Shown here in pieces: positions 12,992-33,797 of a DNA stretch of 64,000 nt. Source of the DNA: a virus; the IMG/VR virus record IMGVR_UViG_3300023184_000048, positions 52,742-116,741 of that record, one strand, 5' to 3'. Position numbers and translations under genes: made by a program. The number at the start of each line of letters is the position of its first letter. The first letter of the stretch is position 1. Below the pieces are notes generated by a model. That model was given only the letters and a program-made list of their open reading frames with translations, was not told the origin of the DNA and did not search any database.

Positions 12992-13160
12992 AGATAGAAC
13001 AAAAAATTTGGAATCTTACCGATCAAGTCCTCTTTGGGATAAGATTGGTAAAGATAAGAAGAAGTATGAAACATATACAGAATTTTCAAATAATTTCTTC
13101 AAAGAACATCCAGAATTATATGATAAATTAGAAGATATTAAGGGAGAAAATCTTGATTAA
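12975..13160 (+). CDS. Small charged hypothetical protein
   Basis: 61 residues, Lys/Asp/Glu-rich. Its stop TAA is the TTAA of the promoter module at 13156. Confidence 0.65.
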   Translation: MSKGDKDRTKNLESYRSSPLWDKIGKDKKKYETYTEFSNNFFKEHPELYDKLEDIKGENLD

Positions 13161-13181: not shown

Positions 13182-13907
13182 ATGACTTATAATTTTAGAA
13201 GCGATTGCGTCATACTTTTAGGGGATACTCATTCACACCATACTCTATACGAAATGGTTATCAGGATTCCTAAAGATTCTGATTTGATTTCTCTTGGTGA
13301 TAATGGTTTTGCGTTTGGTGAAGATCGGGCAAAAGCAATTTATTACACTGATAATATGCTTAAACTAATTAATGATTTTTGTAAATGTGAAAATATTAAT
13401 CTGTATATTTTAATTGGTAATCATGATGCACCATACCCAGAAATTTGGGATAAAAAATGGTCCAATATTTTTCTGACGAAATCTGGAGATTATGGAATAT
13501 TTCCAAATGGTAAAAAGGCTTTGCTTGTTGGGGGTGGTATTAGTGTTGATCGCTGCTCCCGTAAACAGAATATTGATTATTGGTCAGAAGAAATAACCCC
13601 ATATATTACCGACATAGATAAATGTGATTATCTCCTCAGTCATGATTGTCCAGAGGAATTTAATCATCAAACCAATTCTTTATATAAAAGATTTCAATGG
13701 GCTTTAGATAAAGACCCAACACTTCTCGAAGATTGTAAAAAACAAAGAAATAATATGACAAGAATTTTAAAGGAGTGCGGGGCAGAAGAACTCTACCATG
13801 CACACATGCATAATAATATAACACAAACAATTGATGGTGTGTATGGCAGGTGTGTAGACATTAATGAATTATACTTTTTAGACACGAATCATGAGAGAAC
13901 AAATTAA
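13182..13907 (+). CDS. Metallophosphoesterase
   Basis: 241 residues. ILLGDTHSHH (D-x-H), LISLGDNGFAFGED, ILIGNHDAPY, LLSHDCPEEFN and ELYHAHMHNN give the full calcineurin-like ligand set. The context, immediately followed by a HAD-like phosphatase and then RNA ligase genes, fits end-processing of nucleic acids, but the substrate is inferred only. Confidence 0.85.
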   Translation: MTYNFRSDCVILLGDTHSHHTLYEMVIRIPKDSDLISLGDNGFAFGEDRAKAIYYTDNMLKLINDFCKCENINLYILIGNHDAPYPEIWDKKWSNIFLTKSGDYGIFPNGKKALLVGGGISVDRCSRKQNIDYWSEEITPYITDIDKCDYLLSHDCPEEFNHQTNSLYKRFQWALDKDPTLLEDCKKQRNNMTRILKECGAEELYHAHMHNNITQTIDGVYGRCVDINELYFLDTNHERTN

Positions 13908-14481
13908 ACGTCTATTTCTGGACTGCGATGAATGTAAAATTTCGAGTCTATATGCTAATAATGTCCACCACGCAGATCAATTAATTGAAACGTATGGACA
14001 GTATTGGGAAGGTTATAAGTATTCCTTAAATGAGGGGACTGGATGGGATTCAAACATTGGGTGGTATGTCACCTTTATTAGACCTTGGGCTAAAGAATTT
14101 TTAAAATGGTCACAAGATACTTATGGTAGGGACAATGTCTATTTCCTTACCATGGGAACTGCTGATTACATTTTTAAAATGAATTCTTTATTAAAATTTG
14201 ACATCGAAAATGATCATATCTTGACAAGAGAAGATATTCACTACCCCAGATATAATTTTGATGATTCTAATAATGTCTTGGTAGATAATGAAAACTATCA
14301 ATATCACTCTTTTGGAAATGGTTTGAATAAGGTGAATTTCTTAAGTGGGTTGCCGCCCCAGAAGCTGGTCCAAGTTAAGCATTTTGATGTAAGGTATTTT
14401 AAACCTAAAAATGATAATGGTTATGTTGAACATGTCAAAAAAGAAATAATTAAAGCATTTGAATGGAAATATGAAAGTTAA
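13891..14481 (+). CDS. HAD-superfamily phosphatase-like protein
   Basis: 196 residues. LFLDCDEC is a DxD motif I, VYFLTMGT fits motif II, and NNVLVDNENY fits the acidic motif IV. RPWAKEFLKWSQ is the FCP1/SCP1-style segment after motif I. Such domains dephosphorylate proteins or 3'-phosphate ends (as in T4 Pnkp). It overlaps the phosphoesterase by 17 nt. Confidence 0.7.
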   Translation: MREQIKRLFLDCDECKISSLYANNVHHADQLIETYGQYWEGYKYSLNEGTGWDSNIGWYVTFIRPWAKEFLKWSQDTYGRDNVYFLTMGTADYIFKMNSLLKFDIENDHILTREDIHYPRYNFDDSNNVLVDNENYQYHSFGNGLNKVNFLSGLPPQKLVQVKHFDVRYFKPKNDNGYVEHVKKEIIKAFEWKYES

Positions 14482-14683
14482 AGAAATATACCCAGAAAAA
14501 ATTGTGATCACTTACGATATGGTGGTTGTTGAAAATGGGGAGGAGCAATGCTATACCAGACATAACGCAAATACTTGGAGCTTCTTCGTATCATATGGTA
14601 TTTATGGAGAGGATTATGATGTTGATGATGAAAAAGCTAAACAATTAGAAGCATTATTTCAGGAATACAAGGAATTGGTATAA
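14471..14683 (+). CDS. Small hypothetical protein
   Basis: 70 residues; acidic C-terminus. The ATG at 14471 is chosen because the upstream extension uses TTG only. Overlaps the HAD gene by 11 nt. Confidence 0.65.
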   Translation: MKVKEIYPEKIVITYDMVVVENGEEQCYTRHNANTWSFFVSYGIYGEDYDVDDEKAKQLEALFQEYKELV

Positions 14684-14703
14684 ATTAAAAACTAGAATAT
14701 AAT
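14684..14703 (+). promoter_or_regulatory. Promoter module, consensus
   Basis: -10 TATAAT, +7 to the 14710 gene. Confidence 0.85.
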
Positions 14704-14709
14704 AAACAC

Positions 14710-14904
14710 ATGATAAAAAAATTACTTAGAGAATTGCAGGAAACATTTAACTACACCGAAGAAGAACTGAACGAGATTCAAGAAGCCATGGAAGAATTTG
14801 GAAATTCTTGTTACGATCTTGGATTCAAGGATGGGTGCAAACAATTCGACATCGAACAGGAATACTATCAGGGATTCTCTTATGGTAAGAAGGAGGATCA
14901 ATAA
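14710..14904 (+). CDS. Small acidic helical protein
   Basis: 64 residues, mostly helical and acidic (LRELQETFNYTEEELNEIQE). Function unknown. Confidence 0.7.
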   Translation: MIKKLLRELQETFNYTEEELNEIQEAMEEFGNSCYDLGFKDGCKQFDIEQEYYQGFSYGKKEDQ

Positions 14905-14906
14905 TT

Positions 14907-15107
14907 ATGGCAGCTAAGAAAAAAATTAAAGTGGATTATATAACCATTGAGAAGGAGGATACTATTTTAATTGCTCTTCTCGAACGATATTGGAAATTAG
15001 TCAAGATTGAAGATATTGGAAAAACGTTAGCAATTACAAAAGCGGTTGATAAATTAGAAGAATTCATTAATAAGCGTAAACAAGAAATCAAAGATGAAAA
15101 CGCCTAA
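14907..15107 (+). CDS. Small hypothetical protein
   Basis: 66 residues, basic N-terminus (AAKKKIKVDY). One of few genes with an AGGAGG-like stretch (about 10 nt before the ATG), but it lies inside the upstream KKEDQ codons and may be chance. Confidence 0.7.
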   Translation: MAAKKKIKVDYITIEKEDTILIALLERYWKLVKIEDIGKTLAITKAVDKLEEFINKRKQEIKDENA

Positions 15108-15474
15108 ATATACCGGAGTCGAAGTAAGAAAATTTGACCTTTTTGGATGGTTGATGTGTATCCTTGGGTTGTGGTGTATTTGGACATTCACGACAACCAG
15201 AGAGTGGACACTTGTATTTTTATCCTTTTTATGTTTTTGGGATTATGTTATCAGGGTATCATTTGGTAGGGTTTACAAACATGTCTATTATGATACAATC
15301 CTCTATCCAATGTATGAATTGGAAGTTGATATGGCAGATGAAACATATTTTGTATGTGCTGAAAATCAGGATGAATTAGATCTATATATGGAACAACATT
15401 ATCCTAATATGAAGTATAAGATTCTAAGAGAGACACATGTCGAGAGTTATATAAAAACTGAAGAATTTCAATAA
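15094..15474 (+). CDS. Small membrane protein
   Basis: 126 residues. Two adjacent TM segments near residues 13-50 (FGWLMCILGLWCIWTFT, TLVFLSFLCFWDYVI), then a soluble acidic tail of about 70 residues. Overlaps the previous gene by 14 nt. Function unknown. Confidence 0.75.
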   Translation: MKTPKYTGVEVRKFDLFGWLMCILGLWCIWTFTTTREWTLVFLSFLCFWDYVIRVSFGRVYKHVYYDTILYPMYELEVDMADETYFVCAENQDELDLYMEQHYPNMKYKILRETHVESYIKTEEFQ

Positions 15475-15493
15475 TTAAAAACTAAAATATAAT
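15474..15493 (+). promoter_or_regulatory. Promoter module, -10 TATAAT
   Basis: ACTAAAA variant; +7 to the macro-domain gene. Confidence 0.85.
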
Positions 15494-15499
15494 ACGATT

Positions 15500-16153
15500 A
15501 TGATTACCTATAAAAGAGGGGATTTATTGGACTATTTTAGGAATGACGAGTGTTCTGTGGTGTTACATAGCTGTAATACTTTAGGGGTGATGGGGGGCTT
15601 TGCTGGTCAGGTCAGACAACAATATTCAAAAGCTTTCCAAGATTATATAGAAGTTTATGAAAGTATTGGTTTATATTTGGGTTCTGTTATCACATCTGAA
15701 GTTGAGGATGGTAAGTATATTTTCAATATGGTCAATCAGGATAGTATCGGAAGAGGATCTAGAAAGGTTGACTATGAGGCACTATATAAGACTTTAGAAA
15801 CCTCTAGATATTGGGTTGATAAACTTCAAATTGAAGGCAATATTGGGATACCTTCAAAACTCTCGTCGGACCTTGGGGGTGGATCGTGGAGAGTTGTAAA
15901 AGCAATGATCGATGAAGTTTTCAAGGATCATGAAGTCCTTATTGTTGAATATGATACATCTGAGAAATCAAAATATGGATACATGTGTGATGAACAAGAT
16001 GTTGAAGATTGGGTTGATCGTATTGTTGGTGAATTGTATGGAACATCTTCTTGGATCGCTTTGAGTGCCATTGAAAAGTGGATGAAATCACCTGATTGTG
16101 ATAAAGGAGATTTGAGAAGAATTAAGGATATTGTTGACAAATACGTTGATTAA
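15500..16153 (+). CDS. Macro-domain protein (ADP-ribose binding)
   Basis: 217 residues. Macro-fold signatures: MITYKRGDLLD, VVLHSCNTLGVMGGFAGQVR (binding loop with the N and the GG), IFNMVNQDSIG, GIPSKLSSDLGGGSW. The domain binds or removes ADP-ribose or its derivatives, and the C-terminal ~60 residues are extra. In phages, macro domains can counter NAD/ADP-ribose-based defence or recycle the Appr-1''-p made during tRNA splicing or repair. The nearby RNA ligases make both readings possible. Confidence 0.85.
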   Translation: MITYKRGDLLDYFRNDECSVVLHSCNTLGVMGGFAGQVRQQYSKAFQDYIEVYESIGLYLGSVITSEVEDGKYIFNMVNQDSIGRGSRKVDYEALYKTLETSRYWVDKLQIEGNIGIPSKLSSDLGGGSWRVVKAMIDEVFKDHEVLIVEYDTSEKSKYGYMCDEQDVEDWVDRIVGELYGTSSWIALSAIEKWMKSPDCDKGDLRRIKDIVDKYVD

Positions 16154-16168
16154 AAACTAGAGCATAAT
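16149..16168 (+). promoter_or_regulatory. Promoter module, -10 CATAAT
   Basis: +7 to the 16175 gene; its TAA ends the macro-domain gene. Confidence 0.75.
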
Positions 16169-16174
16169 ACACAT

Positions 16175-16633
16175 ATGAATATTATCAGAACAGTAGCAGA
16201 ACCTCTAAAAAAACCAAGTAAACTTAAATGTTTTTGGTGGAAGCTTGAAAGAAAATGGCAAAATATTTGTGATTTCTTCAATCCTAAGAATGAATGGTTT
16301 TATGAAGATATTCCAAATCATTATGTTGAAAATAATGATTTGATTAAAATTGTTCTATACAAGACTCTTGTAAGTTATGTTGAAGTCGAAAAAGGACTTC
16401 AACATTCTGATTGGTCTGAAGGTGATGCTCCAAGCTATAAAGAATTGATAGAAGCTTGTTATGAGGGAATTACAGTAACACTCCCAGAACTTCAGAAAAT
16501 CATGGACTCTGTTCATTATCCTTGGACAGAAGATGAATGGAGATTGTATTCTGATACATCTGATGAATTTGATAAGACTGAACAATTGATTTGTGAAACA
16601 ATTGTAAAAATTAGAGGAGTTCTTTGGACATGA
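16175..16633 (+). CDS. Hypothetical protein
   Basis: 152 residues. Basic Trp-rich N-terminus (KCFWWKLERKWQNICDFF), acidic remainder. No family recognised. ATGA overlap with the next gene. Confidence 0.7.
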   Translation: MNIIRTVAEPLKKPSKLKCFWWKLERKWQNICDFFNPKNEWFYEDIPNHYVENNDLIKIVLYKTLVSYVEVEKGLQHSDWSEGDAPSYKELIEACYEGITVTLPELQKIMDSVHYPWTEDEWRLYSDTSDEFDKTEQLICETIVKIRGVLWT

Positions 16634-17040
16634 ATGAACAAGAATCTCTGAAATTTGTCCAGAGTGTAGCATCTGAAAATGGTATGCTCAATGTCGAAAA
16701 GGCAACACTAGGACAAATTTATTCATTTCTGGATTCTTTGAGTTGTAGTAGATCAATCCCTAAAAAGATTAAAACTGATAAGGTCTTGACGAAAAAGGAA
16801 AAAACGAAACTTAAAAATAATCAAAAAATTCACTTTAAACGTAGATTTCAGGAAAGAGTTGGTTATGTCTTGACAGATGAGAAGTATGATGTATTATGTG
16901 ATCTTATCCGAAAAGATGGTCATTTCTTATCAAAACATGAAGGTTCAAACCAATCAATCTTTTCGGTAAATTATGAAAGAATAAATTTGAAAGTGGTTTA
17001 TAATGCTTATGATAATATTTTGATTACTGTCTTGCCATAA
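16630..17040 (+). CDS. Hypothetical protein, basic core
   Basis: 136 residues. The C-terminal half (HFKRRFQERVGYVLTDEKYD, ending INLKVVYNAYDNILITVLP) is a compact alpha/beta fold that recalls small RelE/HigB-like phage proteins, without a catalytic signature I can confirm. Confidence 0.65.
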   Translation: MNEQESLKFVQSVASENGMLNVEKATLGQIYSFLDSLSCSRSIPKKIKTDKVLTKKEKTKLKNNQKIHFKRRFQERVGYVLTDEKYDVLCDLIRKDGHFLSKHEGSNQSIFSVNYERINLKVVYNAYDNILITVLP

Positions 17041-17041
17041 A

Positions 17042-17326
17042 ATGAAATATAAAATTAAAACATCTTTTGGATGCACTTCCAATTGTATAGAAATTAATGA
17101 TAAGCTGTATTATTGTGAAGATCCTCGTTATGGTTTAACTGATGAAGAACGAAACAAATTTCATGATGACTTATTCAAACAAATCAGAACATTATTTGAT
17201 GATAGTAGAATTGGTGTGATCAATCTTATTGAAATGCTTGATGTTGAAGATGTTGAATATTCTGAGACATGTGAACAATGTTTTGATAGCGTGACCACCA
17301 CAACTTATGAAGAATTTGGAGATTGA
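17042..17326 (+). CDS. Small Cys-containing hypothetical protein
   Basis: 94 residues with SETCEQCFD and a Thr-rich end. A CxxC may bind metal. Function unknown. Confidence 0.65.
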   Translation: MKYKIKTSFGCTSNCIEINDKLYYCEDPRYGLTDEERNKFHDDLFKQIRTLFDDSRIGVINLIEMLDVEDVEYSETCEQCFDSVTTTTYEEFGD

Positions 17327-17330
17327 CTTA

Positions 17331-17350
17331 ATTAAAAACTGGAATATGAT
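17331..17350 (+). promoter_or_regulatory. Promoter module, -10 TATGAT
   Basis: ACTGGAA variant with TTGACT at the -35 distance; +7 to the RNA ligase gene. Confidence 0.75.
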
Positions 17351-17356
17351 ACACTC

Positions 17357-18391
17357 ATGAAAAAGCATTACTCATTCCCAAAAATTGGGCAATATCATCA
17401 AACTATTCGACACTTGAAACTTCAACACTCTTATCAGGGTAAGGATGAAAATGGTGATCCAATTTATAAAGAACCTGATGTGTGGCCAGTGGTTAAATTC
17501 AAGGGAACCGTAAAATTGCATGGTAGCAACGGAGCAGTTGTATTCTCTCCTCATGGTTCTTTCTATTGCCAATCCAGAGAAAATGTGATTGATGAAATTA
17601 AGGATAATGCTGGATTCGCTCATTGGGTGAATAAGGAAGGTCATAAAATTTGGGAAGATGTATGGCATAAAGTTGATCTGAATATTGATAAACATGATTC
17701 GCTCATTAAACTTATTGTGGTGTTCGGAGAATGGTGTTGTGGTTCGATTCAGAAAGGCGTAGCATTAAATGAACTCTCCAAGAGATTTGTAATTTTTGGA
17801 TTAAAGATTATATTTGAAGATGAGACTACTCGATGGATGGATTCTTCTGGAATTATAAACTCAGAAATTAGTGTTTATAATATTGAAGATGCGCCAACTT
17901 ATGAAATTGAAGTTGACTTAAATCGTCCAGACAAAGCCATTGAACAGATGAACACTTGGGTTGATGAAATTGATGCTGAATGCCCATTCGCTAAGATGTT
18001 TAATGTTTCTGGGCATGGTGAAGGAATTGTGTGGCGAGAAGCTGGAAAATTTGGATATGATACTTCATTCAAAACTAAAGGAGAATCCCACAGCAAGTCC
18101 AAAATCAAAAAGCTTCCTACTGTTGATGTTCAAAAGATGGACAATATTCAACAAGCGATTGATACTCATTGTCATGAAGATAGAATGCTTCAAATTTATG
18201 ATAAAGTTGTAGTGACTGAAGCTGATAAGACTCCAAAAAACATTGGATTATACTTGCAGAAATTGATCGAAGATTGCTGGACTGAAGAGGGTGATTCTAT
18301 GAGAGCTTCTGATATTTCTCGTAAGGATTTTGGTGCTGCTGTTTCTAAAAAGGCTGCTAAGTGGTTTCAAAACAAATTACAAGAATTTTAA
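17357..18391 (+). CDS. Rnl2-type RNA ligase
   Basis: 344 residues, close to T4 Rnl2 (334). Motif I K53-L-H-G-S-N in the context VVKFKGTVKLHGSNG, with Lys53 as the AMP acceptor. Motif Ia/III-like YCQSRENV and VVFGEWCCGSIQKGVA, motif IV EGIVWRE, motif V FKTKGE. It seals 3'-OH/5'-phosphate nicks in duplex RNA. Together with the kinase, phosphatase and Rnl1-like genes downstream it makes a phage RNA-repair set. TAATG overlap with the next gene. Confidence 0.92.
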   Translation: MKKHYSFPKIGQYHQTIRHLKLQHSYQGKDENGDPIYKEPDVWPVVKFKGTVKLHGSNGAVVFSPHGSFYCQSRENVIDEIKDNAGFAHWVNKEGHKIWEDVWHKVDLNIDKHDSLIKLIVVFGEWCCGSIQKGVALNELSKRFVIFGLKIIFEDETTRWMDSSGIINSEISVYNIEDAPTYEIEVDLNRPDKAIEQMNTWVDEIDAECPFAKMFNVSGHGEGIVWREAGKFGYDTSFKTKGESHSKSKIKKLPTVDVQKMDNIQQAIDTHCHEDRMLQIYDKVVVTEADKTPKNIGLYLQKLIEDCWTEEGDSMRASDISRKDFGAAVSKKAAKWFQNKLQEF

Positions 18392-18594
18392 TGAAGACTA
18401 ATTGGGAAAAGATTGCTGATGATTTGTATAAATCATTGAAGAGAACTCCATATCATGAGTGTGGGGAGCTTGATCATGGTGGTGATAAATCTCATTATCA
18501 TAAATGTGACGAATCTTGTCCTGTGATAAAAAAGATCGAGAAATCCATAGAAAATTATCAGAAGTTGAAAGAATTAAAAACTAAAATACAATAA
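18391..18594 (+). CDS. Small zinc-binding-like protein
   Basis: 67 residues; HECGELDHGGDKSHYHKCDE plus SCPVI gives a Cys/His cluster. Start at the ATG overlapping the ligase stop. Its C-terminus (KTKIQ*) is encoded by the promoter module itself. Confidence 0.7.
   Translation: MKTNWEKIADDLYKSLKRTPYHECGELDHGGDKSHYHKCDESCPVIKKIEKSIENYQKLKELKTKIQ
18573..18592 (+). promoter_or_regulatory. Promoter module, -10 TACAAT
   Basis: +7 to the 18599 gene; the third-frame stop TAA at 18592-18594 ends the 18391 gene. Confidence 0.8.
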
Positions 18595-18598
18595 GCTC

Positions 18599-18913
18599 AT
18601 GACAAGACGATATAGACTTACCAAAATCAAGGAGTGTGAAAATCCCGTAGTTAAAGCAGCACAAACACCAGCAGAATACAGAGCATCATTACACACTAAT
18701 GATGAACTATCACCTTCTGTTGATTATTATGTAGAGGGTTATCCTCTGGACACTCCAAAAGTAAGAGAGAATTTTAACTTTTTTCGAGATAATCGAAATG
18801 GTGTAAAGATTGATGGAATTATGTCAACATCTACTGTTAGGCAAATTCATGATTTCGGTGATTACATGGAAATAACTACAAGTAATAGTGTTTACGTTTT
18901 GACAAAATTATGA
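18599..18913 (+). CDS. Hypothetical protein
   Basis: 104 residues, basic N-terminus (TRRYRLTKIKE). The C-terminal half suggests a small beta domain (YMEITTSNSVYVLTKL). Function unknown. Confidence 0.7.
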   Translation: MTRRYRLTKIKECENPVVKAAQTPAEYRASLHTNDELSPSVDYYVEGYPLDTPKVRENFNFFRDNRNGVKIDGIMSTSTVRQIHDFGDYMEITTSNSVYVLTKL

Positions 18914-19206
18914 AAGCATACCCAGCATACTTCTCGAAAGATCTTTTAAATCAATTTGCCACAGATGAGACACGTAATGATATTTGGAAATGGTTGAATT
19001 ATAATGCCCATGATAAAGGTTATGTGATGGTCTGCGAAGTTGATCAATATAGTTTGGAATGTGAACCTTATGATTTTCAAACACAACCAGATCCAATTGT
19101 GGTCAAATTTTTGAATGATGTGCTGAAAGAATATGGTGAATGTCGTGACCATGATTCGACGTTACCTAGCGGTGGATGGAAACAAATTGATATTATTGTG
19201 TTATGA
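18910..19206 (+). CDS. Hypothetical protein
   Basis: 98 residues, no recognised motif. ATGA overlaps at both ends place it in an operon with the nucleotidyltransferase that follows. Confidence 0.7.
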   Translation: MKAYPAYFSKDLLNQFATDETRNDIWKWLNYNAHDKGYVMVCEVDQYSLECEPYDFQTQPDPIVVKFLNDVLKEYGECRDHDSTLPSGGWKQIDIIVL

Positions 19207-19979
19207 CAATCAAAGAACACGAAGCTTTTAAAAATTGTAAAGGAGAATTATTATTTTCCATAATCGGAGGATCGCGTCTCTACGGAATCGAATTGCCAGA
19301 TAGTGATTACGATGAAAGAGGAATTTTTCTAGCGACTGATAAGAAGTATACCACTGGATTTGACACAATTGAAAGCATTGTTCAGACTGGTGATGTGGAT
19401 TCTACTTATTATGAACTTGCTAGATATTTAAAATTACTCAGAAAGAGTAATACGCAAGTTATGGAGATTTTATTCGCTCCCGAATTGTCGATTGTTCACA
19501 ATACTGAAATTTTTAAATATCTCAGAGAGAATAGATATTCATTGATTGACACACATGCTCTTAAAGCTTCTTTAAAGGGTTATGTGTATAGTGAGATAAA
19601 ATTGGCGACGGGTGAGCGCAGTGGTCAACTTGGAGGTAAAAGAAAGGCTGCTGTTGAGAAATATGGATTCTCATTTAAAAACTTTGTCCAAATATTTCGA
19701 TTGATTAAAGTTGGAAAATTATTCTTTACAAGTGGAGAGTATATGGTAAAAGTTAGAGAGTTTGATGAAGATTATCATAATTTCTTAATGGAAATTAAGA
19801 CAGCCCCTGAAAATTTCACTTGTGAACAATTGAGTAAAATAGTTGATAAAGAATTTGAAAAACTGGTGAAGGTTATGGATGAATCAAAAATTAATTTCAA
19901 ATTTGATGTGGAACTAGCTGCGGATATTGTTGAAAGTGCAAGATATCATTATTGTGGAACAGATCCTTCTTGGGGTTGA
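19203..19979 (+). CDS. RlaP-like predicted nucleotidyltransferase
   Basis: 258 residues. SIIGGSRLYGIELPDSDYDERG is the pol-beta/MNT motif G-S...D-x-D (Ser24, Asp33, Asp35/37). Downstream helices (TYYELARYLKLLRKSNTQVMEIL) match the RNA-repair-associated nucleotidyltransferases found next to RNA ligases (RlaP type). Likely adds or transfers a nucleotide during RNA end repair. Placement between two RNA ligases supports this. Confidence 0.85.
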   Translation: MTIKEHEAFKNCKGELLFSIIGGSRLYGIELPDSDYDERGIFLATDKKYTTGFDTIESIVQTGDVDSTYYELARYLKLLRKSNTQVMEILFAPELSIVHNTEIFKYLRENRYSLIDTHALKASLKGYVYSEIKLATGERSGQLGGKRKAAVEKYGFSFKNFVQIFRLIKVGKLFFTSGEYMVKVREFDEDYHNFLMEIKTAPENFTCEQLSKIVDKEFEKLVKVMDESKINFKFDVELAADIVESARYHYCGTDPSWG

Positions 19980-19998
19980 TTAAAAACTAGAATATAAT
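19979..19998 (+). promoter_or_regulatory. Promoter module, consensus
   Basis: -10 TATAAT, +7 to the 20005 gene. Confidence 0.85.
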
Positions 19999-20004
19999 AA
20001 ACAT

Positions 20005-20613
20005 ATGCCAACAGGATATACAGCAAGCGTAGGTGATGGTGAGGTAACAGAATTTAGAGATTTTGCACTTACATGTGCAAGAAATTTTGGTGCATGTTTT
20101 CATCAAAGAGATGATAATCAAAAAGATCTACCAAAATTACAAGAGGTCAGTGATTATCATCTTACTGCAAAGAATGAATATGTTCTTTATCTGAAGAATC
20201 TTAAGAGATTATCTGATAAAAGTTATATTGAACGCTACAAGGTTAAATTCTTTAATGATCAATTACATGTTAGGGAAAACATTCAAGATAAAATTAATAC
20301 CAAGCTAAATTATGAAAAGATGCTGGAAGCTGTAAAAAATTGGACCCCACCAACACCAGACCATGACAATATGAAGAATTTCATGATCTCACAATTGACA
20401 GAATCTATTGACTGGGATTGTGATTTAGATTATTATAATCGAGAGCTTGAAAGGCAACCTCTTTCAGATGAAGATATTTTAATTGCTAAAGCTGAAGAGA
20501 TTGAACGACTTGAGAGGGATATTGAATATCACACTAACAAATATAAAGAAGAAGTTGAACGTATTAATAAGAGTAATGAATGGATTCTTGAACTATATAA
20601 ATCACTAGAATGA
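20005..20613 (+). CDS. Conserved phage protein, coiled-coil C-terminus
   Basis: 202 residues. The N-terminus PTGYTASVGDGEVTEFRDFA and FGACFHQRDD follow a pattern common in phage proteins of unknown function. Residues about 150-200 form a coiled coil (EEIERLERDIEYHTNKYKEE). ATGA overlap with the phosphatase gene. Confidence 0.8.
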   Translation: MPTGYTASVGDGEVTEFRDFALTCARNFGACFHQRDDNQKDLPKLQEVSDYHLTAKNEYVLYLKNLKRLSDKSYIERYKVKFFNDQLHVRENIQDKINTKLNYEKMLEAVKNWTPPTPDHDNMKNFMISQLTESIDWDCDLDYYNRELERQPLSDEDILIAKAEEIERLERDIEYHTNKYKEEVERINKSNEWILELYKSLE

Positions 20614-21230
20614 ATTACTTTTTTGTTAGACACCAAAAATCTAAGGGTAACTTGGACCCCTCATTGTATCATATAATGAACGATCATGAGATTGATCTAT
20701 GTCATGAACATGATCATCAATCAGAAAATGCTGCTGATAAAATTGTAGACTTGGCAGATCTTCACGGTGTGAGGGATAGATTATTTCATCTTTACCATTC
20801 TCCATTTCTGAGAACTAGAAAGACCAAGAATCTAATTCTAAAAGAATTAGCATATGATTACATTTTTCCAACAGTAAACGAAAATCCACTTTTGGGGGAG
20901 CGTAGGTGGGGAGATTTGAGGAATATAATCGAAAGAGAGGATAATACTGATAAGTATTTTGATTTTTATTATCAACCTTTAGATGGAGAGTCATTCATGG
21001 ATTGTTATCATAGATGTGTCACTTTTGATAATATGTTAAAACATCAAGTTTCTAACAAAGATAATGTTATTATTATTGGTCATGGTGAACAGATCAGGTG
21101 TTATCTGATGCATTTACTTGGGTGGACATTGGAAGAATTTAATGAACACAAAAATCCAGAAAATTGTGAGGTGATCATGGTGAAAGATGGTGTATTGGAA
21201 ACTTCTTTGAGAAAGAGAATTAAAAACTAG
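20610..21230 (+). CDS. Histidine-phosphatase family protein
   Basis: 206 residues. YFFVRHQKSKGN is the catalytic RHG-type motif (R-H-x-x-S-x-x-N), FLRTRKTKN supplies the phosphate pocket Arg, and IIIGHGEQIRC carries the second catalytic His. It removes phosphate from small molecules or proteins. Its last residues (RIKN*) come from the promoter module. Confidence 0.85.
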   Translation: MNYFFVRHQKSKGNLDPSLYHIMNDHEIDLCHEHDHQSENAADKIVDLADLHGVRDRLFHLYHSPFLRTRKTKNLILKELAYDYIFPTVNENPLLGERRWGDLRNIIEREDNTDKYFDFYYQPLDGESFMDCYHRCVTFDNMLKHQVSNKDNVIIIGHGEQIRCYLMHLLGWTLEEFNEHKNPENCEVIMVKDGVLETSLRKRIKN

Positions 21231-21238
21231 AATATAAT
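21219..21238 (+). promoter_or_regulatory. Promoter module, consensus
   Basis: -10 TATAAT, +7 to the 21245 gene; second-frame TAG ends the phosphatase gene. Confidence 0.85.
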
Positions 21239-21244
21239 ACGAAT

Positions 21245-21622
21245 ATGACATGGATTGAAATTACATTTTGGGTGCTCCTTTTTGGAGTGTTTATAATTGG
21301 GTGTATTGTATCTGATAATGATAGTCCACTATTCATACTACTGCCATTTATGTTTATTATGGTATTCGGAGCATTGCCATATCTGATCATTAGGGAGAAC
21401 ACAGAAGTTGTTATGGTGAAAGAGGAACCAGTAAAAATTTTATCAAATGTAATGGTTGATGGAAAGATGGTTATAATCACTGATACTGCTGAAAAGGTGG
21501 AGTTCACCGAATATAAAGATGTGATAGATATTAATTCTGGTAAGCAATTGATCAAGAGATTTTATAAAAAGGATGTTTATTACGGTCCTGATTCTTCTTG
21601 GGATAAAATTGAAATAAAATGA
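21245..21622 (+). CDS. Membrane protein with small soluble domain
   Basis: 125 residues. Two TM helices (ITFWVLLFGVFIIGCIV, LFILLPFMFIMVFGALPYLI) and then about 70 residues of beta-rich soluble sequence. Function unknown. ATGA overlap with the next gene. Confidence 0.75.
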   Translation: MTWIEITFWVLLFGVFIIGCIVSDNDSPLFILLPFMFIMVFGALPYLIIRENTEVVMVKEEPVKILSNVMVDGKMVIITDTAEKVEFTEYKDVIDINSGKQLIKRFYKKDVYYGPDSSWDKIEIK

Positions 21623-21966
21623 GCACAAATATACATATAAATTCTACAGGTGTTGTCAAAACTCCTAATGGCTCGGATAAAGAAATTTACAAACCATTTA
21701 ATTGCTGGCAAACACCTTCAAAAGATACAACTTGGATTATGGATCAAAAAGATCGCCTTCAAGCTTATAAAGATTGGGTAATGTCGAGAGAATGTATTGA
21801 AATGGAAGATATCCATGATATCTTTACGTGGGATGATGAGACTGACTATTATAAGGTAATAGGACAACAACCATATTCTGCCGCTAAAGAACATATCAAG
21901 GACTTGGAAGAATTTGTAGAAACAGAAGAGTCTTTGGGGTTTAATTTGAATGTAGTATCTTGGTAA
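21619..21966 (+). CDS. Hypothetical protein
   Basis: 115 residues, acidic C-terminal helix (IKDLEEFVETEESLGF). No recognised family. Confidence 0.7.
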   Translation: MSTNIHINSTGVVKTPNGSDKEIYKPFNCWQTPSKDTTWIMDQKDRLQAYKDWVMSRECIEMEDIHDIFTWDDETDYYKVIGQQPYSAAKEHIKDLEEFVETEESLGFNLNVVSW

Positions 21967-21968
21967 TT

Positions 21969-22502
21969 ATGAGTCGTAAATATTTCACAGGGATTGGATC
22001 ACGTTCTTGTCCTAAAAATATTGGTAAAGAGATGACCATTCTTGCTTCTGAATTGGAAGAAATGGGATATTGGTTGCTTTCTGGATGTGCTGATGGAGCG
22101 GATAGTTTTTTCCAAAATGGTGTTAAAAATAATGCTCAAATCCTATTACCTTGGGAAGATTTTAATGTTGAACAACAACGTAAACATCCAACTCATGAAT
22201 ATCTTTTGAATGATAATGATGAAGAGGCTGATAGAATGGTTGAACAATTTCATGCTGCTCCTAAGAATTTAAATGATACTACTAGGAAATTTCATAGAAG
22301 AAATATTAGACAAATCTTGCCTATTGGAGAAAACCCATCAGAGTTTGTAATATATTGGACACCAGAAGGTAATTGGCAAGGTGGAACAAAAACAGCTTTG
22401 GAATGTGCTAAATTTCATGGTATACCAACCTTTAGTATGTATCATTTGACCAGACAAGAAATCCTGAAAGAAATTGAGAAGTTGAATTTTCTCTATAATT
22501 AA
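21969..22502 (+). CDS. SLOG-domain (DprA/YspA-like Rossmann) protein
   Basis: 177 residues from the ATG 2 nt after the previous stop. YFTGIGSRSCPKNIGKEM, then YWLLSGCADGADSFF, are the SLOG nucleotide-binding loops; PEGNWQGGTKTALECA completes the fold. SLOG domains bind nucleotide-derived ligands (ADP-ribose or cyclic derivatives) and appear in defence sensors such as Thoeris. A phage copy beside a macro domain could sequester such signals (inference). Confidence 0.8.
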   Translation: MSRKYFTGIGSRSCPKNIGKEMTILASELEEMGYWLLSGCADGADSFFQNGVKNNAQILLPWEDFNVEQQRKHPTHEYLLNDNDEEADRMVEQFHAAPKNLNDTTRKFHRRNIRQILPIGENPSEFVIYWTPEGNWQGGTKTALECAKFHGIPTFSMYHLTRQEILKEIEKLNFLYN

Positions 22503-22517
22503 AAACTAAAATATAAT
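22498..22517 (+). promoter_or_regulatory. Promoter module, -10 TATAAT
   Basis: ACTAAAA variant; +7 to the kinase gene; TAA ends the SLOG gene. Confidence 0.85.
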
Positions 22518-22523
22518 ACAAAT

Positions 22524-22934
22524 ATGAAAAACATTATAATACTCAGATCGTGTTCGAGTGCTGGTAAAAGTTCCTTCGCTAAACTCCTATGCCAACAAAT
22601 TGGTTGGGTTGAGTGCAATGCTGATTTCTTCTTTGAAGATAAAGAAGGAAATTATAATTTTGATTTCAATAAGATTGGTGATGCTCATGCTCAGTGTCGT
22701 AAAAGTTTCATGGAAGCTTTAAAAGAGTCCACTGTCACTGGAATTGTTGTGAGTAATACCAACGTTGAAGAAAAGCAATGGAAGTTTTATGAAGATGAGG
22801 CTAAGAAGGTTGGAGCAAGAGTTACTTTTTTGGTTATCGAAAAAAGGCATGATGGCGAAAATAATCATAACGTTCCAGAGACTTCTCTTCAGAGTCAGGA
22901 AGACAGAATTAGGAATAGTTTAAAACTGAGGTAA
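22524..22934 (+). CDS. P-loop kinase (polynucleotide-kinase/N4BP2-like)
   Basis: 136 residues. The Walker A is RSCSSAGKSSF (Lys15). ECNADFFFED and KIGDAHAQCRKSFMEAL match the AAA_33-type kinases related to T4 polynucleotide kinase and NEDD4BP2. GIVVSNTNVEEKQW is the NTN motif of that family. It would phosphorylate 5'-OH ends, fitting the two RNA ligases nearby. It is shorter than T4 Pnkp and has no fused phosphatase domain; the HAD protein at 13891 may fill that role. Confidence 0.8.
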   Translation: MKNIIILRSCSSAGKSSFAKLLCQQIGWVECNADFFFEDKEGNYNFDFNKIGDAHAQCRKSFMEALKESTVTGIVVSNTNVEEKQWKFYEDEAKKVGARVTFLVIEKRHDGENNHNVPETSLQSQEDRIRNSLKLR

Positions 22935-22935
22935 T

Positions 22936-23154
22936 ATGAAAAAGCAAATCAGAATCAAAAAGGGTATTCAAACTATTGAAGAATATGGATCTCTTGGATG
23001 TAAAAATAATTTACACGAAGTCTTAGTTCTCTTGAAAGGTTTGGAGTTTACTGAAGAGGATTATAAATTGGTGACTTTTAAACCAGATTTTAGTTCATGT
23101 CATTATGAGGGTGATCGACCAGATGTTAGAATGGAATGGCCAAATATTTATTAA
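22936..23154 (+). CDS. Small hypothetical protein
   Basis: 72 residues, basic start (KKQIRIKKGIQ). Has GAGG 5 nt before the ATG, probably by chance. Function unknown. Confidence 0.65.
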   Translation: MKKQIRIKKGIQTIEEYGSLGCKNNLHEVLVLLKGLEFTEEDYKLVTFKPDFSSCHYEGDRPDVRMEWPNIY

Positions 23155-23169
23155 AAACTAGTCTATAAT
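23150..23169 (+). promoter_or_regulatory. Promoter module, -10 TATAAT
   Basis: AGTC variant before the -10; +7 to the 2H gene; TAA ends the 22936 gene. Confidence 0.8.
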
Positions 23170-23175
23170 ATTCAT

Positions 23176-23616
23176 ATGTTGGATGCAGAAGGAATCATCA
23201 AAGTTGAACACGGTCAAAGAATGGTTGTTGACCTCGATGAAGATTTTACCAAATATTACAGCTATTTTATTCAACAGCGTTATTGGGTCAAGCCTTCATT
23301 GCCTCTTCACGGAAGTCATATCACTTTAACTAACAAAAAGTTTCATAAGGATGTTGATTGGGATCGAGGACTTGATTATCATGGACAAATTCTTAAATTC
23401 CAATATGATCCATATTTGATGGAAGGTGGATTTTTGAAAGGTTTTATCATGTTTTATGTAAAAGTATATTCTGATGAAATTGATCAAATCAAAAAAGACA
23501 TTGGTGTGATTGAGCCTGATAATTTTAGAGGAAGTCATGTTACAATAGCCAGTATCGGTAAGTCTGGTGGTGGAGTAAAATTATATTGGCCAGAATTAAT
23601 AACAATCAAAGGATAA
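23176..23616 (+). CDS. 2H phosphoesterase-like protein (Acb1-like candidate)
   Basis: 146 residues. Two H-x-T motifs 73 residues apart: SHITLT (His48, Thr50) and SHVTIAS (His121, Thr123), the signature of LigT-type 2H phosphoesterases. These open cyclic phosphodiesters. The phage anti-CBASS protein Acb1 belongs to this fold and is of similar size, whereas RNA-repair 2H enzymes hydrolyse 2',3'-cyclic phosphate. Either role suits this neighbourhood. Only the motifs are seen; the specific role is inferred. Confidence 0.7.
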   Translation: MLDAEGIIKVEHGQRMVVDLDEDFTKYYSYFIQQRYWVKPSLPLHGSHITLTNKKFHKDVDWDRGLDYHGQILKFQYDPYLMEGGFLKGFIMFYVKVYSDEIDQIKKDIGVIEPDNFRGSHVTIASIGKSGGGVKLYWPELITIKG

Positions 23617-23620
23617 AATT

Positions 23621-23908
23621 ATGATACATAGAGACGGATACACTGAATATAATAATGAGGAATTGAAGAAGCAAAACACCCGAGAATTATTGGCACACTT
23701 TGACAATATTCGCGCATATAGACAAAATGCTTTTAAGCATGTCGAATATCAACAAGAGCGATTAAAAGAGGCAGAATGGTCATTGAAACTTTATGATAAT
23801 TATTTGGTGGAGTTGAAGGATATCCTTTCAACAAGAGAAAATATTCCAAATAAACAAGAAGCTAAAGCTATCCGACAACAACAAGCAAAAGATAAGAAAA
23901 ATCGGTAA
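23621..23908 (+). CDS. Small coiled-coil protein
   Basis: 95 residues, helical and Gln/Lys-rich (HVEYQQERLKEAEWSLKLY, ending KAIRQQQAKDKKNR). Function unknown. Confidence 0.7.
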   Translation: MIHRDGYTEYNNEELKKQNTRELLAHFDNIRAYRQNAFKHVEYQQERLKEAEWSLKLYDNYLVELKDILSTRENIPNKQEAKAIRQQQAKDKKNR

Positions 23909-23927
23909 TTAAAAACTAGGATATAAT
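23908..23927 (+). promoter_or_regulatory. Promoter module, -10 TATAAT
   Basis: ACTAGGA variant; +7 to the HD hydrolase gene. Confidence 0.85.
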
Positions 23928-23933
23928 ACTCGT

Positions 23934-24380
23934 ATGAATATTAGAGAACAAGCACTTGCCTTTGCCACTAAAGCACATAAAGGACAATTTAGAAAGAACA
24001 GTAAGTTGGAATATATCACACATCCGATTGCTGTTGCTGAAATTGCTGAAAAACTATATGTCGATTATTTGGGAACAGATAAAACAGATGATGTTTATGT
24101 TGCAGCGATTCTTCATGATGTGATTGAAGACACTAAATTCACGTATGAAGATATCGAAAAAGAATTTGATGGTTTTATAGCAAACAGGGTTAAAGGGTTA
24201 ACTAGAGGAGAGGGTGAGTCATATTTCGATATGATTATGAGAATTTCTGAAGGTTACTTCATGGATGCCATCATAAAATTAGCTGATAACATTCACAATT
24301 CATCTGATCTGAAGGAGGGATCTTTAAAAGATAAATATCGCTTTTCGCAACATATATTAAGAAGTAGATTTGAAACATAA
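23934..24380 (+). CDS. MESH1/SpoT-like HD hydrolase (possible ppGpp hydrolase)
   Basis: 148 residues. HD metal ligands in RelA/SpoT order: AHKGQ near residue 15, His30-Pro, His61-Asp62, Glu65-Asp66 (LHDVIEDT), Asp118 in KLADNIHN. The length is that of stand-alone small alarmone hydrolases. It would remove the 3'-pyrophosphate from (p)ppGpp and so blunt the stringent response or an alarmone-based defence. Confidence 0.85.
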   Translation: MNIREQALAFATKAHKGQFRKNSKLEYITHPIAVAEIAEKLYVDYLGTDKTDDVYVAAILHDVIEDTKFTYEDIEKEFDGFIANRVKGLTRGEGESYFDMIMRISEGYFMDAIIKLADNIHNSSDLKEGSLKDKYRFSQHILRSRFET

Positions 24381-24381
24381 T

Positions 24382-24693
24382 ATGCAAGTAATTATTACAA
24401 AAGTCAAAACTGTCGATATTGATTTGGATGCTGAACGTAAGAAAATCAAGAAAGGCTTTAATAAGAAATCCGAAAGAATCTATCGTGATAAGCTTCTTGA
24501 AGTGATTGATATATTTGAACGGGATGGATTTAATATGGCATGTGACGCTTATGATGAACTACCCTATAATGAAGTGGATGAATACCCTCTACAAGAGAGT
24601 ATGGGTATTTGGTGGTGGCAAATTGTCAATGATCAGAGTTTTAATTATCATGATAATGTCAAGCATCAGTATAAGATGGAAATAATTAAATGA
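24382..24693 (+). CDS. Hypothetical protein
   Basis: 103 residues from the ATG 2 nt after the HD stop. Basic helix, then an acidic segment with MGIWWWQIV. Function unknown. ATGA overlap with the next gene. Confidence 0.7.
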   Translation: MQVIITKVKTVDIDLDAERKKIKKGFNKKSERIYRDKLLEVIDIFERDGFNMACDAYDELPYNEVDEYPLQESMGIWWWQIVNDQSFNYHDNVKHQYKMEIIK

Positions 24694-24989
24694 CTAATTT
24701 AGAAATAGCGAAAGATATTCAAAAAGCTTATAAGCTTTTACTGGATAAAACGTCTTGGAAAGCGACCACGGGTAGTCATAAGGCTGCTTGTGATGTTATC
24801 AGCCAAATGACATCATATCATTTAGCTTTGAAAGCTTTTGGTTATATGACTAATGATGAAGGAAAATTGGTGAAATATAAACCAAGAGTCTTATCGGAAT
24901 ATGAACAACTGGTAATGAATACTACCTCTGGGAAAGAATCAGATGCTCAGAAACTGTTAGATTATATCTATACACACGGAATACAATAA
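24690..24989 (+). CDS. Hypothetical protein
   Basis: 99 residues, helical (NLEIAKDIQKAYKLLLDKT). No motif recognised. Confidence 0.7.
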   Translation: MTNLEIAKDIQKAYKLLLDKTSWKATTGSHKAACDVISQMTSYHLALKAFGYMTNDEGKLVKYKPRVLSEYEQLVMNTTSGKESDAQKLLDYIYTHGIQ

Positions 24990-25008
24990 TTAAAAACTAG
25001 AATATAAT
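24989..25008 (+). promoter_or_regulatory. Promoter module, consensus
   Basis: -10 TATAAT, +7 to the Rnl1-like ligase gene. Confidence 0.85.
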
Positions 25009-25014
25009 CACAAC

Positions 25015-26106
25015 ATGAAAATCAAATTTAATGATTACAATTTGGAGGGTTTTAATAAGAAAGAGGTGTTGTTTTGTGGTATCGAAGCAATTTTAATCAC
25101 TCCTGATGATATTAAGTCTAAGTTTACCCAAGATAATAAGATCTTCAGATCATCAATTTGGTCCAGAGACGGTGAATTATTATCAGCTTCGTTTCCTAAG
25201 TTCAAAAATGCAGGTGAAGACCCTGATAATTTTCCAATGCCTAAATCTTTGGATGGTGTTGGTATCGTTACTAAAATCGATGGATCTACTTGTATTGTTG
25301 ATTTTGTCAATGGTGAATTTTCAATGAGAACCAGAGGAGTTTCATCATACTTGACACAGGCTAATTATAAAGATTTTGAGTTCTGTATTGAGAAGTATCC
25401 CAAAATCAAAGCTAGTATAATGAACAATCCTGATTATTCGTTTATCTTTGAAATTGTCACACCAAACCAAAAAATTGTTCTTGATTATGGCCCTGAGCCA
25501 GATGTTATCTTGATCGGTGCTATTGATAAGAATCAGTATTGGATTGTGGAACAACGATATCTTGATAATCTAGCTGAAGCTATTGGTGTCAAACGTCCAG
25601 AATATCATAATTTTGATTCATTTGAAGATATTTACGAATTTTGTAAAATCAATAGAACTATCGAAGGGTTTTGTTTATATTTTAATAATGGTCAATCGAT
25701 TGTGAAGGTGAAGACTGATTTTTACCTAGCATTGCATCGTCTCTTTTCGGGAATGAAGACTATCGGTAATGTGATTGATGTGTTCCTCACAACCCCAAGG
25801 TTTACGAAGTATTCAGATTTTTATGAATTTATCTGTGTAAATATGGACTTTGAGTTAGCTGAACGTTGTAAGGATGATATCCTGAAGGTTGTCGTAGCTT
25901 ATTGTAAGGTTCTGGAAAAAATTGAAATGATTAAAAATGTGATCAATAATGTTCGGGGTGATTCATTCACTCGTAAGGAACAAGCTTTAGACATCATGCA
26001 ACATTATGGTGGGGATATAAGACAAAAAATAGCATTTTTGTTATTGGATGATAAACCAATACCGGATAATATTTTAAAGATGTTTATAGAACATGAGTTA
26101 CAATAG
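25015..26106 (+). CDS. Rnl1-type RNA ligase
   Basis: 363 residues, near T4 Rnl1 (374). SASFPKFKNAGED precedes motif I, K87-I-D-G-S. FSMRTRG follows, FIFEIVTPNQKIVLDY fits motif IIIa, EGFCLYF is motif IV and IVKVKTDFYLALH motif V. The C-terminal helical domain is present. It joins single-stranded RNA, classically repairing cleaved tRNA anticodon loops. The final residues (QKIAFLLLDDKPIPDNIL) are echoed in a broken copy beyond the reverse-strand endonuclease that overlaps its 3' end. Confidence 0.9.
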   Translation: MKIKFNDYNLEGFNKKEVLFCGIEAILITPDDIKSKFTQDNKIFRSSIWSRDGELLSASFPKFKNAGEDPDNFPMPKSLDGVGIVTKIDGSTCIVDFVNGEFSMRTRGVSSYLTQANYKDFEFCIEKYPKIKASIMNNPDYSFIFEIVTPNQKIVLDYGPEPDVILIGAIDKNQYWIVEQRYLDNLAEAIGVKRPEYHNFDSFEDIYEFCKINRTIEGFCLYFNNGQSIVKVKTDFYLALHRLFSGMKTIGNVIDVFLTTPRFTKYSDFYEFICVNMDFELAERCKDDILKVVVAYCKVLEKIEMIKNVINNVRGDSFTRKEQALDIMQHYGGDIRQKIAFLLLDDKPIPDNILKMFIEHELQ

Positions 26107-26910
26107 TTTGAACTTACACTTATCAAAGTGCCACCTAGTTGAATTTTGTGGTGTTAATGATAAATTACAATGTGGGCAGGATACTTTAGATCTATTGTTA
26201 GCTGAATCCCGTATATTTTCAATTTGAGCTTGAGTCCTCTTCAACCCTCTAATTTTAGAGGCTCCCTTTTCCACAGAATCTCTTGATCTTTTTTTACCTT
26301 TATGAGATTTAGAAATTTTATCTCTAGTTTCCTGTGGAATAGTTTTCCCTAAGTTTCTTAATCTATTCTTTTCTATGTCCTCCAGTGATCTCTTCTTACC
26401 TTTTTGTGCTATAGACATTTTAATTTTTGATTCTTCTGTGTGTTTTTGGCCCAATCTATTTGTGTTTCCCATTTTAGATAATGATAATTTTCTTTTTCTT
26501 TCGTCAGATGCTTTGTGACCCAAACAATAGGTGTTTCCTTTATGAAAATTTGATATTTTTCGTTTCGTTTCTTCTGTATGTTTCCTACCCAACCAAACTT
26601 TTGAGTTGGAACCCCTTTCAGATATATTATAACCATGAGGAGCAATTGTATTAAATCTCTTAATTAATTCTTCTTCCAAATTTAAAAGATCATCCTTGGA
26701 AAAATTGGGGAGATACTCAATATACACACTAAAATTATCGATGCCGTATTTTACAAATGCCTTATGAATTACTTGCTCCTTTCTATTTTTATGACTATTC
26801 AATCTTTTATGTATATTAACAGATTCTCCAATATAATGCTTATTGTTTATCGTGTTTGTTATTATATACACACCTCTTTCCTTTTTCAAATCTTTAAAAG
26901 ATATCCCCAT
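26098..26910 (-). CDS. GIY-YIG homing endonuclease with NUMOD3 repeats and zinc finger
   Basis: 270 residues from the ATG preceded by a TAAATA signal. RGVYIITNTINNKHYIG is the GIY-YIG core. HKAFVKYGIDNFS and LEEELIKRF follow. Four to five NUMOD3-type repeats (LGRKHTEETKRKISNFHKG and variants) and a C-terminal CPHC...H...C finger complete it. It overlaps the last 9 nt of the Rnl1-like gene. Confidence 0.92.
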   Translation of the reverse strand: MGISFKDLKKERGVYIITNTINNKHYIGESVNIHKRLNSHKNRKEQVIHKAFVKYGIDNFSVYIEYLPNFSKDDLLNLEEELIKRFNTIAPHGYNISERGSNSKVWLGRKHTEETKRKISNFHKGNTYCLGHKASDERKRKLSLSKMGNTNRLGQKHTEESKIKMSIAQKGKKRSLEDIEKNRLRNLGKTIPQETRDKISKSHKGKKRSRDSVEKGASKIRGLKRTQAQIENIRDSANNRSKVSCPHCNLSLTPQNSTRWHFDKCKFKLL

Positions 26911-26915
26911 ATTAC

Positions 26916-26921
26916 TATTTA
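26916..26921 (-). promoter_or_regulatory. TAAATA late-type -10
   Basis: 5 nt before the endonuclease ATG on the reverse strand. Confidence 0.5.
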
Positions 26922-26951
26922 ACAACTTTATATACTTTTGATATTCAGGTA

Positions 26952-33745: not shown

Positions 33746-33750
33746 ACATT

Positions 33751-33756
33751 TATTTA
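33751..33756 (-). promoter_or_regulatory. TAAATA late-type -10
   Basis: 5 nt before the ATG of the GIY-YIG/AP2 gene, reverse strand; divergent from the rIIA promoter. Confidence 0.5.
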
Positions 33757-33777
33757 GTCCATAACTACCGAAAATCA

Positions 33778-33797
33778 ATTAAAAACTAGATTACAAT
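33778..33797 (+). promoter_or_regulatory. Promoter module, -10 TACAAT
   Basis: +7 to the rIIA-like gene. Confidence 0.85.

Follow-up and report, generated by a model that had tools for sequence, protein, structure and literature searches.

A probable resident RNA end-healing and sealing locus in an uncultivated clade of T4-like myoviruses

Introduction

Bacterial defences frequently target tRNAs, which they cut or modify to stop phages. A close described counterpart of the locus reported here is the system that phage T4 sets against PrrC, consisting of the RNA ligase Rnl1 and of Pnkp, in which a kinase and a phosphatase are fused. Here, we analyse a window of 64,000 nucleotides (bases 52742–116741 of the 116,741-base IMG/VR virus record IMGVR_UViG_3300023184_000048) and, within it, a block of genes at window positions 13182–26106 that resembles the T4 system in having an Rnl1-like ligase and a 5′ kinase matched to the same predicted damage, and differs from it in that the kinase, of 136 amino acids (aa), lacks a HAD domain. 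We conclude that the block is probably a locus for healing and sealing RNA ends, resident in a clade of T4-like myoviruses, which would use it to rebuild host-damaged tRNAs and possibly other RNAs. Judging from its enzymes, the most likely use of the locus is to undo bacterial defences that cut tRNAs.

Many of the enzyme families concerned have been noted in phages before. Passages in two surveys by Iyer et al. (2021, PMC7824862; 2022, PMC9503650) list phage RlaP, Rnl1/Rnl2, kinase, HAD, 2H, cRec, macro, SLOG, alarmone HD and PTH2 proteins, and propose roles for these phage families in RNA repair and in countering nucleotide signals; the term histidine phosphatase occurs in neither paper. A 2H 2′,3′-cyclic phosphodiesterase is joined to a histidine phosphatase in UBASH3/TULA proteins (PMC10218301), and PaSpo of Salmonella phage SSU5 is a small alarmone hydrolase that can remove the tRNA pyrophosphate added by toxSAS enzymes, reversing the action of FaRel2 (PMC11559606).

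Results

The window belongs to a fragment of a T4-like myovirus, which encodes a T4-type terminase, a contractile tail sheath, a baseplate wedge protein, RIIA and RIIB; the best matches of the terminase are those of T4-like cyanophages (35%). Its nearest relative is IMGVR_UViG_3300017780_003104 (211,724 b, terminase 69%; hereafter G001). A blastn search of 50,697 isolated phage records found no nucleotide match to the block, and no Rfam family was found in its region. An earlier note on this DNA had named eleven domains in the block (two RNA ligases, kinase, HAD, metallophosphoesterase, RlaP, 2H, macro, SLOG, histidine phosphatase and HD), and each was recovered, in place and on the + strand. 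Motifs are intact in both ligases, RlaP, HD, 2H and the metallophosphoesterase, whereas three proteins depart from consensus: the P-loop of the kinase reads SCSSAGKS, the histidine phosphatase has RHQ instead of RHG, and motif I of the HAD protein is DCDEC. The weakest profile assignments, those of the HAD and 2H proteins, both became firmer after family alignments. Within the block, PADLOC matched only the macro domain, as DarG-like, and the kinase, as CARF-AAA.

Four of the genes fit RNA repair. The Rnl2-type ATP-dependent RNA ligase (17357–18391; PF09414 6.5e-14, phrog_548 8e-41) carries a KLHG nucleotidyl motif together with EGIVWR and KTKG, and is 38% identical to its match in Leptolyngbya phage Lbo-JY46. 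At a distance of 0.8 kb lies RlaP, the RNA-ligase-associated Pol-beta nucleotidyltransferase (19203–19979; PF10127 4.6e-19, phrog_388 2e-28), in which GGS..DSDYD is kept, so that an intact GGS..DxD motif and a neighbouring ligase are both present, as in RlaP-associated RNA repair. The last gene of the block encodes a full-length T4 Rnl1-like RNA ligase (25015–26106; phrog_562 3e-33 over residues 43–359, TIGR02308 4.7e-15) that is 37% identical to its G001 homologue and has the intact nucleotidyltransferase motif (KIDG) of the ligase in a T4-type Pnkp/Rnl1 system. A phmmer comparison of both ligases with the PDB returned nothing usable. The stand-alone P-loop kinase (22524–22934; phrog_2071 6e-30, phrog_505 polynucleotide kinase 1.4e-9), with its SCSSAGKS P-loop and PNK-like lid, is on its sequence likely to be a 5′-OH polynucleotide kinase. 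It shows no kinase-3′-phosphatase fusion of the Pnkp kind, the HAD protein being encoded by a separate gene 8 kb away.

It could be argued that these enzymes serve the RNAs or virions of the phage itself, through Rnl1-mediated tail-fibre attachment as by gp63, tRNA maturation or mRNA end processing, rather than an anti-defence function. The annotation of phrog_562 is ‘RNA ligase and tail fiber protein attachment catalyst’, and G001 has a large tRNA set; but Rnl1 here adjoins end-healing genes and not tail genes, and to our knowledge neither RlaP nor 2H has a role in tail assembly. We regard this explanation as very unlikely.

The 2H phosphoesterase (23176–23616; Pfam 2H-SAK 0.06, PHROG 12204) has the motifs H48-x-T50 and H121-x-T123 (HIT and HVT), both of which nearly all of 28 relatives retain, and thus presents within a 2H fold the HxT/HxT tetrad characteristic of Acb1. 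The top Foldseek matches of its AlphaFold2 model (pLDDT 78) are 2H enzymes; among solved structures, Acb1, AKAP18, LigT and CPDase ranked together, all with E above 0.1, and the viral models retrieved include Acb1 and cyclic phosphodiesterases. As modelled, the fold is that of a 2H protein, and the structural matches do not single out a subfamily. Sequence gave no support for membership of two described families: Acb1 falls in PHROG 755, and hhalign gave a probability of 3% for the alignment with Acb1 of T4 (57B) and of 1% for that with LigT/ThpR of Escherichia coli. We consider the protein likely to be a 2′,3′-cyclic phosphodiesterase, the substrate being predicted.

An argument that these genes belong together comes from their conservation. 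Scans of viral contigs with single Rnl2 or Rnl1 proteins found no relatives, a GTDB genome scan with the histidine phosphatase (HisP) found none either, and single-protein scans of the genomes of relatives gave no match, so that local tblastn and hidden Markov models (HMMs) were used in their place. Relatives were reached only via the terminase and two-sequence alignments; viral contigs were scanned with kinase, 2H and HisP alignments and then with iterated HMMs over 203 sequences. The window is colinear with G001, whose homologous stretch (113.8–133.5 kb) keeps the metallophosphoesterase, HAD, macro, HisP, SLOG, 2H, kinase and Rnl1 genes, as well as those at 15094 and 24370. Across the relatives, the recurring order is cRec–metallophosphoesterase–HAD–15094–macro–ligases–RlaP–PTH2–HisP–SLOG–2H–24370–kinase–Rnl1–HD–PARP, from which each contig has a different subset, and the kinase and 2H genes are swapped in the window relative to the other contigs. 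The run HisP–(SLOG)–2H–kinase–Rnl1 occurs in 10 IMG/VR contigs besides the window and ends after 2H in three more, so that at least HisP followed by 2H is found in 13 contigs. Rnl1 lies within 10 kb in 18 of the 25 clusters of loci seeded with 2H, HisP in 17 and the kinase in 12; for loci seeded with the kinase, Rnl1 was within 10 kb in 25/41 clusters. The 19 terminase loci used as controls, which are structural-gene loci, contained none of the block families. Because about a dozen other phage genomes carry this nearly complete RNA-repair toolkit in a largely similar order, the block is a real functional unit.

The association also extends beyond the clade. Kinase, 2H and RNA ligases are still together in four distant contigs (L102, L106, L165 and L166) whose 2H proteins are 20–24% identical, and in Aeromonas phage 2L372X, an isolate, the genes for a phosphoesterase, Rnl1 and a kinase overlap one another. 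The linkage of 2H with kinase and ligase is not universal, since the 2H homologue of phage RaK2 has no annotated kinase or ligase neighbours, and has CCA-adding enzyme, Nudix and macro-like genes within about 5 kb.

One could instead regard the block as a mixture of early-region genes of nucleic-acid metabolism with no common pathway, which would lie close together owing to densely packed early transcription units and to vertical descent in a single clade. The same promoter-like element does occur across the whole 7–63 kb + strand region, many small genes of no assigned function are interspersed and content differs among relatives. However, kinase–Rnl1–2H coupling recurs in distant phages and kinase–Rnl1 in isolates of other groups, and the order is held although protein identities are 34–53% (pairwise medians 47–53%, minima 34–38%). 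We therefore consider this explanation distinctly unlikely.

Three further genes encode candidate phosphatases. A calcineurin-like metallophosphoesterase (13182–13907; PF00149 2.9e-5, phrog_1649 4e-12), which keeps GDTH, GNHD and HxH and is 48% identical to the homologue at the same place in G001, is encoded by a gene overlapping by 17 nt that of a divergent HAD-fold phosphatase (13891–14481; NIF 0.006 and FCP1 1.7e-4, both weak). The latter retains the DxD motif and other HAD residues, with motif I reading DCDEC in the window and DFDNT or DYDET in relatives; its family is conserved in 14 fetched loci, and it is a candidate RNA 3′/2′-phosphatase. HisP (20610–21230; PF00300, His_Phos_1, 1.3e-16) keeps its catalytic residues (RH, R, E and the last H) in an alignment of nine relatives, the window copy having RHQ where branch 1 has RHG. 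Three of the 50,697 isolated phage records match it. In Acinetobacter phage ME3, the HisP gene is near a metallophosphoesterase and has no annotated RNA ligase close by. Distant HisP genes were also seen 2–4 kb from RlaP in large (jumbo) phage contigs (L195, L196 and L202; two Pfam-confirmed), which we judged too few to count.

The remaining recognizable domains are a macro, a SLOG and an HD domain. The macro domain protein, of the DarG/Appr-1″-p type (15500–16153; phrog_335 1.8e-32, PADLOC DarG 2.4e-14, PDB matches to macro domains and Appr-1″-p phosphatase), reached 40 bits against a cut-off of 250 for the DarG NCBIfam equivalog and was assigned to the macro domain only; it is possibly an ADP-ribose or ADPr-1″-phosphate hydrolase. 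The SLOG protein (21960–22502; phrog_768 9.8e-48), whose gene separates HisP from 2H in several relatives, is DprA-like, and DNA binding has been proposed for such proteins by Iyer et al. The HD hydrolase (23934–24380; PF13328 6.6e-13, spoT_relA 2.2e-19) is of the RelA/SpoT type; at 148 aa it keeps THP, HDVIED and LADNIHN and has no synthetase domain, as is characteristic of small alarmone hydrolases, and its PDB matches are hydrolase domains, a (p)ppApp hydrolase and MESH1.

These proteins raise the alternative of a signal-degradation island, in which 2H, macro, SLOG, metallophosphoesterase and HD would chiefly bind or erase the messengers of CBASS, Thoeris or Pycsar, or alarmones, the ligases being incidental. 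Acb1 structures rank among the top Foldseek matches of the 2H model and viral Acb1 models also appear in the list, its size and HxT spacing are near those of Acb1 (H48..H121 versus H44..H113, PMC9117128), the catalytic residues of macro and HD look usable, and the predictions of Iyer et al. (2021, 2022) give phage macro, SLOG, 2H and HD proteins such roles. On the other side, the Foldseek matches to solved structures were not significant and mixed several 2H families, a link between 2H and Acb1 is missing from sequence profiles, the SLOG protein is DprA-like and kinase or ligase genes are consistently near 2H. This alternative seems to us unlikely. Of two activities that the earlier note had proposed, the reversal of tRNA cleavage is supported, as RNA repair, by the co-occurrence of kinase, Rnl1, 2H, RlaP and other RNA ligases across divergent phages and by the trio in 2L372X, whereas the erasure of CBASS or Thoeris signals finds no specific support, with 2H lacking a sequence match to Acb1, SLOG being DprA-like and the macro protein falling far below the DarG cut-off.

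The note’s description of the block as an island is doubtful. The GC content of the block (0.32–0.33) matches that of its surroundings, and neither foreign composition nor insertion relative to kin was found; because the locus is also colinear with G001, it looks resident and variable rather than acquired. That the set is variable follows from the nearest relative, in which tblastn found no homologues of the Rnl2-type ligase at 17357, RlaP or HD. In the stretches read of five relative contigs (211 kb of G001, and G006–G009), 15 block families had no matches outside the homologous stretch of G001, which, with the empty terminase controls, indicates that their grouping exceeds chance; the locus is thus accessory at the depth of the more distant T4-like relatives G006–G009 (terminase 47–49%), which are without block families in those stretches. 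The homologous stretch of G001 in turn carries a cRec domain, an ATP-dependent DNA-ligase-like protein, two other RNA ligases, PTH2, another HD and a WGR-PARP protein. The last, a WGR plus PARP catalytic domain protein, closes the repair locus in several relatives (L031 18268–19497, corresponding to G001 132268–133500). The cRec protein directly precedes the metallophosphoesterase in G001 (L030 18764–19306), and a short open reading frame (ORF) at window 12975–13160 resembles its N-terminal part by eye, which suggests that the cRec domain has been lost in the window.

A promoter-like element of 15 nt, AACTAGAATATAATA, preceded by ATTAAA, was found directly upstream of start codons. The window has 69 copies of TTAAAAACTA on the + strand and 0 on the − strand, and the preceding 54 kb have two, one being the copy shared with the window. 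The copies, of the type ATTAAAAACTA[GA]AATATAATA, span window positions 815–63527 on the + strand (for example, 13162, 15480, 23156 and 24995), most of them 25 nt before the ATG and separated from it by 5 nt (in some cases 8 nt); few of the genes show a Shine-Dalgarno match. The G001 version is TAATTAAAACCGAAnTAtAATa, with 52 copies placed at −24, and AAACACTA versions stand in almost the same register in other relatives. The elements are candidate leaderless early promoters; if TATAAT is a −10 box, its spacing would place the transcription start at the ATG and the mRNAs would be leaderless. Twelve block genes have the element, so that the block seems to be regulated together with the rest of the 7–63 kb region of the phage rather than to be a foreign insert; the best reading is that the locus is of the early type.

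Three conserved genes accompany the recognizable enzymes. The gene at 15094–15474, for a small putative membrane protein, is present in 17 loci and adjoins the macro gene in relatives, and that at 24370–24693, for a 107-aa protein, is present in 20 loci and in relatives lies between 2H and kinase; neither protein has a Pfam or PHROG family. The gene at 20005–20613 (phrog_8905, 5.6e-33; homologues in L067, L143 and L148) overlaps the HisP gene by 4 nt.

Beyond the block, a GIY-YIG/NUMOD3 homing endonuclease gene directly follows Rnl1 (26098–26925, −), and it matches the same G001 region as a second minus-strand ORF (32711–33778, −). A further phosphoesterase (phrog_547; 28623–29291), 2.5 kb after Rnl1 and conserved in G001 at 134.9 kb, may mark the extent of the locus. 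The region of G001 at about 159–200 kb (L033–L035) has 22 predicted tRNA genes, including one called tRNA-Pyl with a CTA anticodon, which might act as an amber suppressor; the contig of the window probably stops short of such a cluster.

Discussion

The enzymes of the block suggest an ordered pathway. A host anticodon nuclease would leave a 2′,3′-cyclic phosphate and a 5′-OH, of which the former would be opened by 2H. A separate phosphatase would then be needed, because the kinase lacks the phosphatase domain of T4 Pnkp, and the remaining phosphate could be removed by a monoesterase, most plausibly the neighbouring HisP or the HAD/metallophosphoesterase pair. RlaP may refill lost nucleotides, the stand-alone kinase would phosphorylate the 5′ end, and Rnl1 and Rnl2 would seal anticodon-loop breaks and duplex-RNA nicks, respectively. 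The HD protein might remove the pyrophosphate left at tRNA 3′ ends by toxSAS enzymes, or degrade alarmones, which is equally possible; it fits the tRNA theme because the phage hydrolase PaSpo reverses the tRNA modification by FaRel2. The macro protein may remove ADP-ribose or process ADPr-1″-phosphate. In this scheme, the identities of the genes, their intact catalytic motifs and their conserved linkage are observed, and from them we infer the substrates, the sequence of steps and the advantage over host defences.

HisP is our favoured phosphatase candidate because it is the most consistent flank of 2H. We tentatively raise the possibility, itself somewhat doubtful, that the HisP–2H pair is a previously unrecognized RNA end-healing module, in which 2H opens the cyclic end and HisP strips the 2′- or 3′-phosphate, replacing both the HAD domain of Pnkp and the Tpt1/KptA route, before the stand-alone kinase and Rnl1 finish tRNA repair.

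Several observations weigh against an RNA repair locus. The Rnl2, RlaP and HD homologues missing from G001 are among them, and synteny within the clade is partly due to shared descent. T4 Rnl1 doubles as gp63, which catalyses tail-fibre attachment, and the metallophosphoesterase, HAD, SLOG and HisP proteins could serve DNA or nucleotide metabolism.

With a locus that covers almost all repair steps, a whole pathway could be reconstituted from one phage. It would also reveal which phosphatase partners 2H when that of Pnkp is missing, and it suggests roles for the conserved genes at 24370–24693, 15094–15474 and 20005–20613.

Only some parts of the locus are unexpected, such as the recurring HisP; the extra cRec, PTH2, RNA ligase and PARP proteins of the relatives belong to a repertoire largely assigned to phage RNA repair by PMC7824862. 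Relative to the jumbo-phage repertoires of Iyer et al., the genes here are gathered into a single compact, syntenic locus of a T4-like clade, with HisP recurrent. Acb1 of T4 (57B) has a similar length and a 2H fold with HxT/HxT motifs, but no sequence homology to the window 2H protein is detectable and the gene neighbours differ. UBASH3/TULA proteins are eukaryotic single polypeptides whose histidine phosphatase domain acts on phosphotyrosine proteins, and provide an analogy to the HisP–2H pair only, not homology. PaSpo is a phage small alarmone hydrolase and the window HD protein is predicted to be one, the two being likened here by description only and the latter sitting within a repair locus. 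To the ligase and kinase that it has in common with T4, the block adds separate HAD, HisP, metallophosphoesterase, 2H and RlaP genes and a second, Rnl2-type ligase. The new elements are the arrangement of the genes as a compact syntenic locus, its occurrence in an uncultivated T4-like clade, the recurrence of HisP beside 2H, the conserved partners of no known family and a stand-alone kinase in place of the fused Pnkp of T4.

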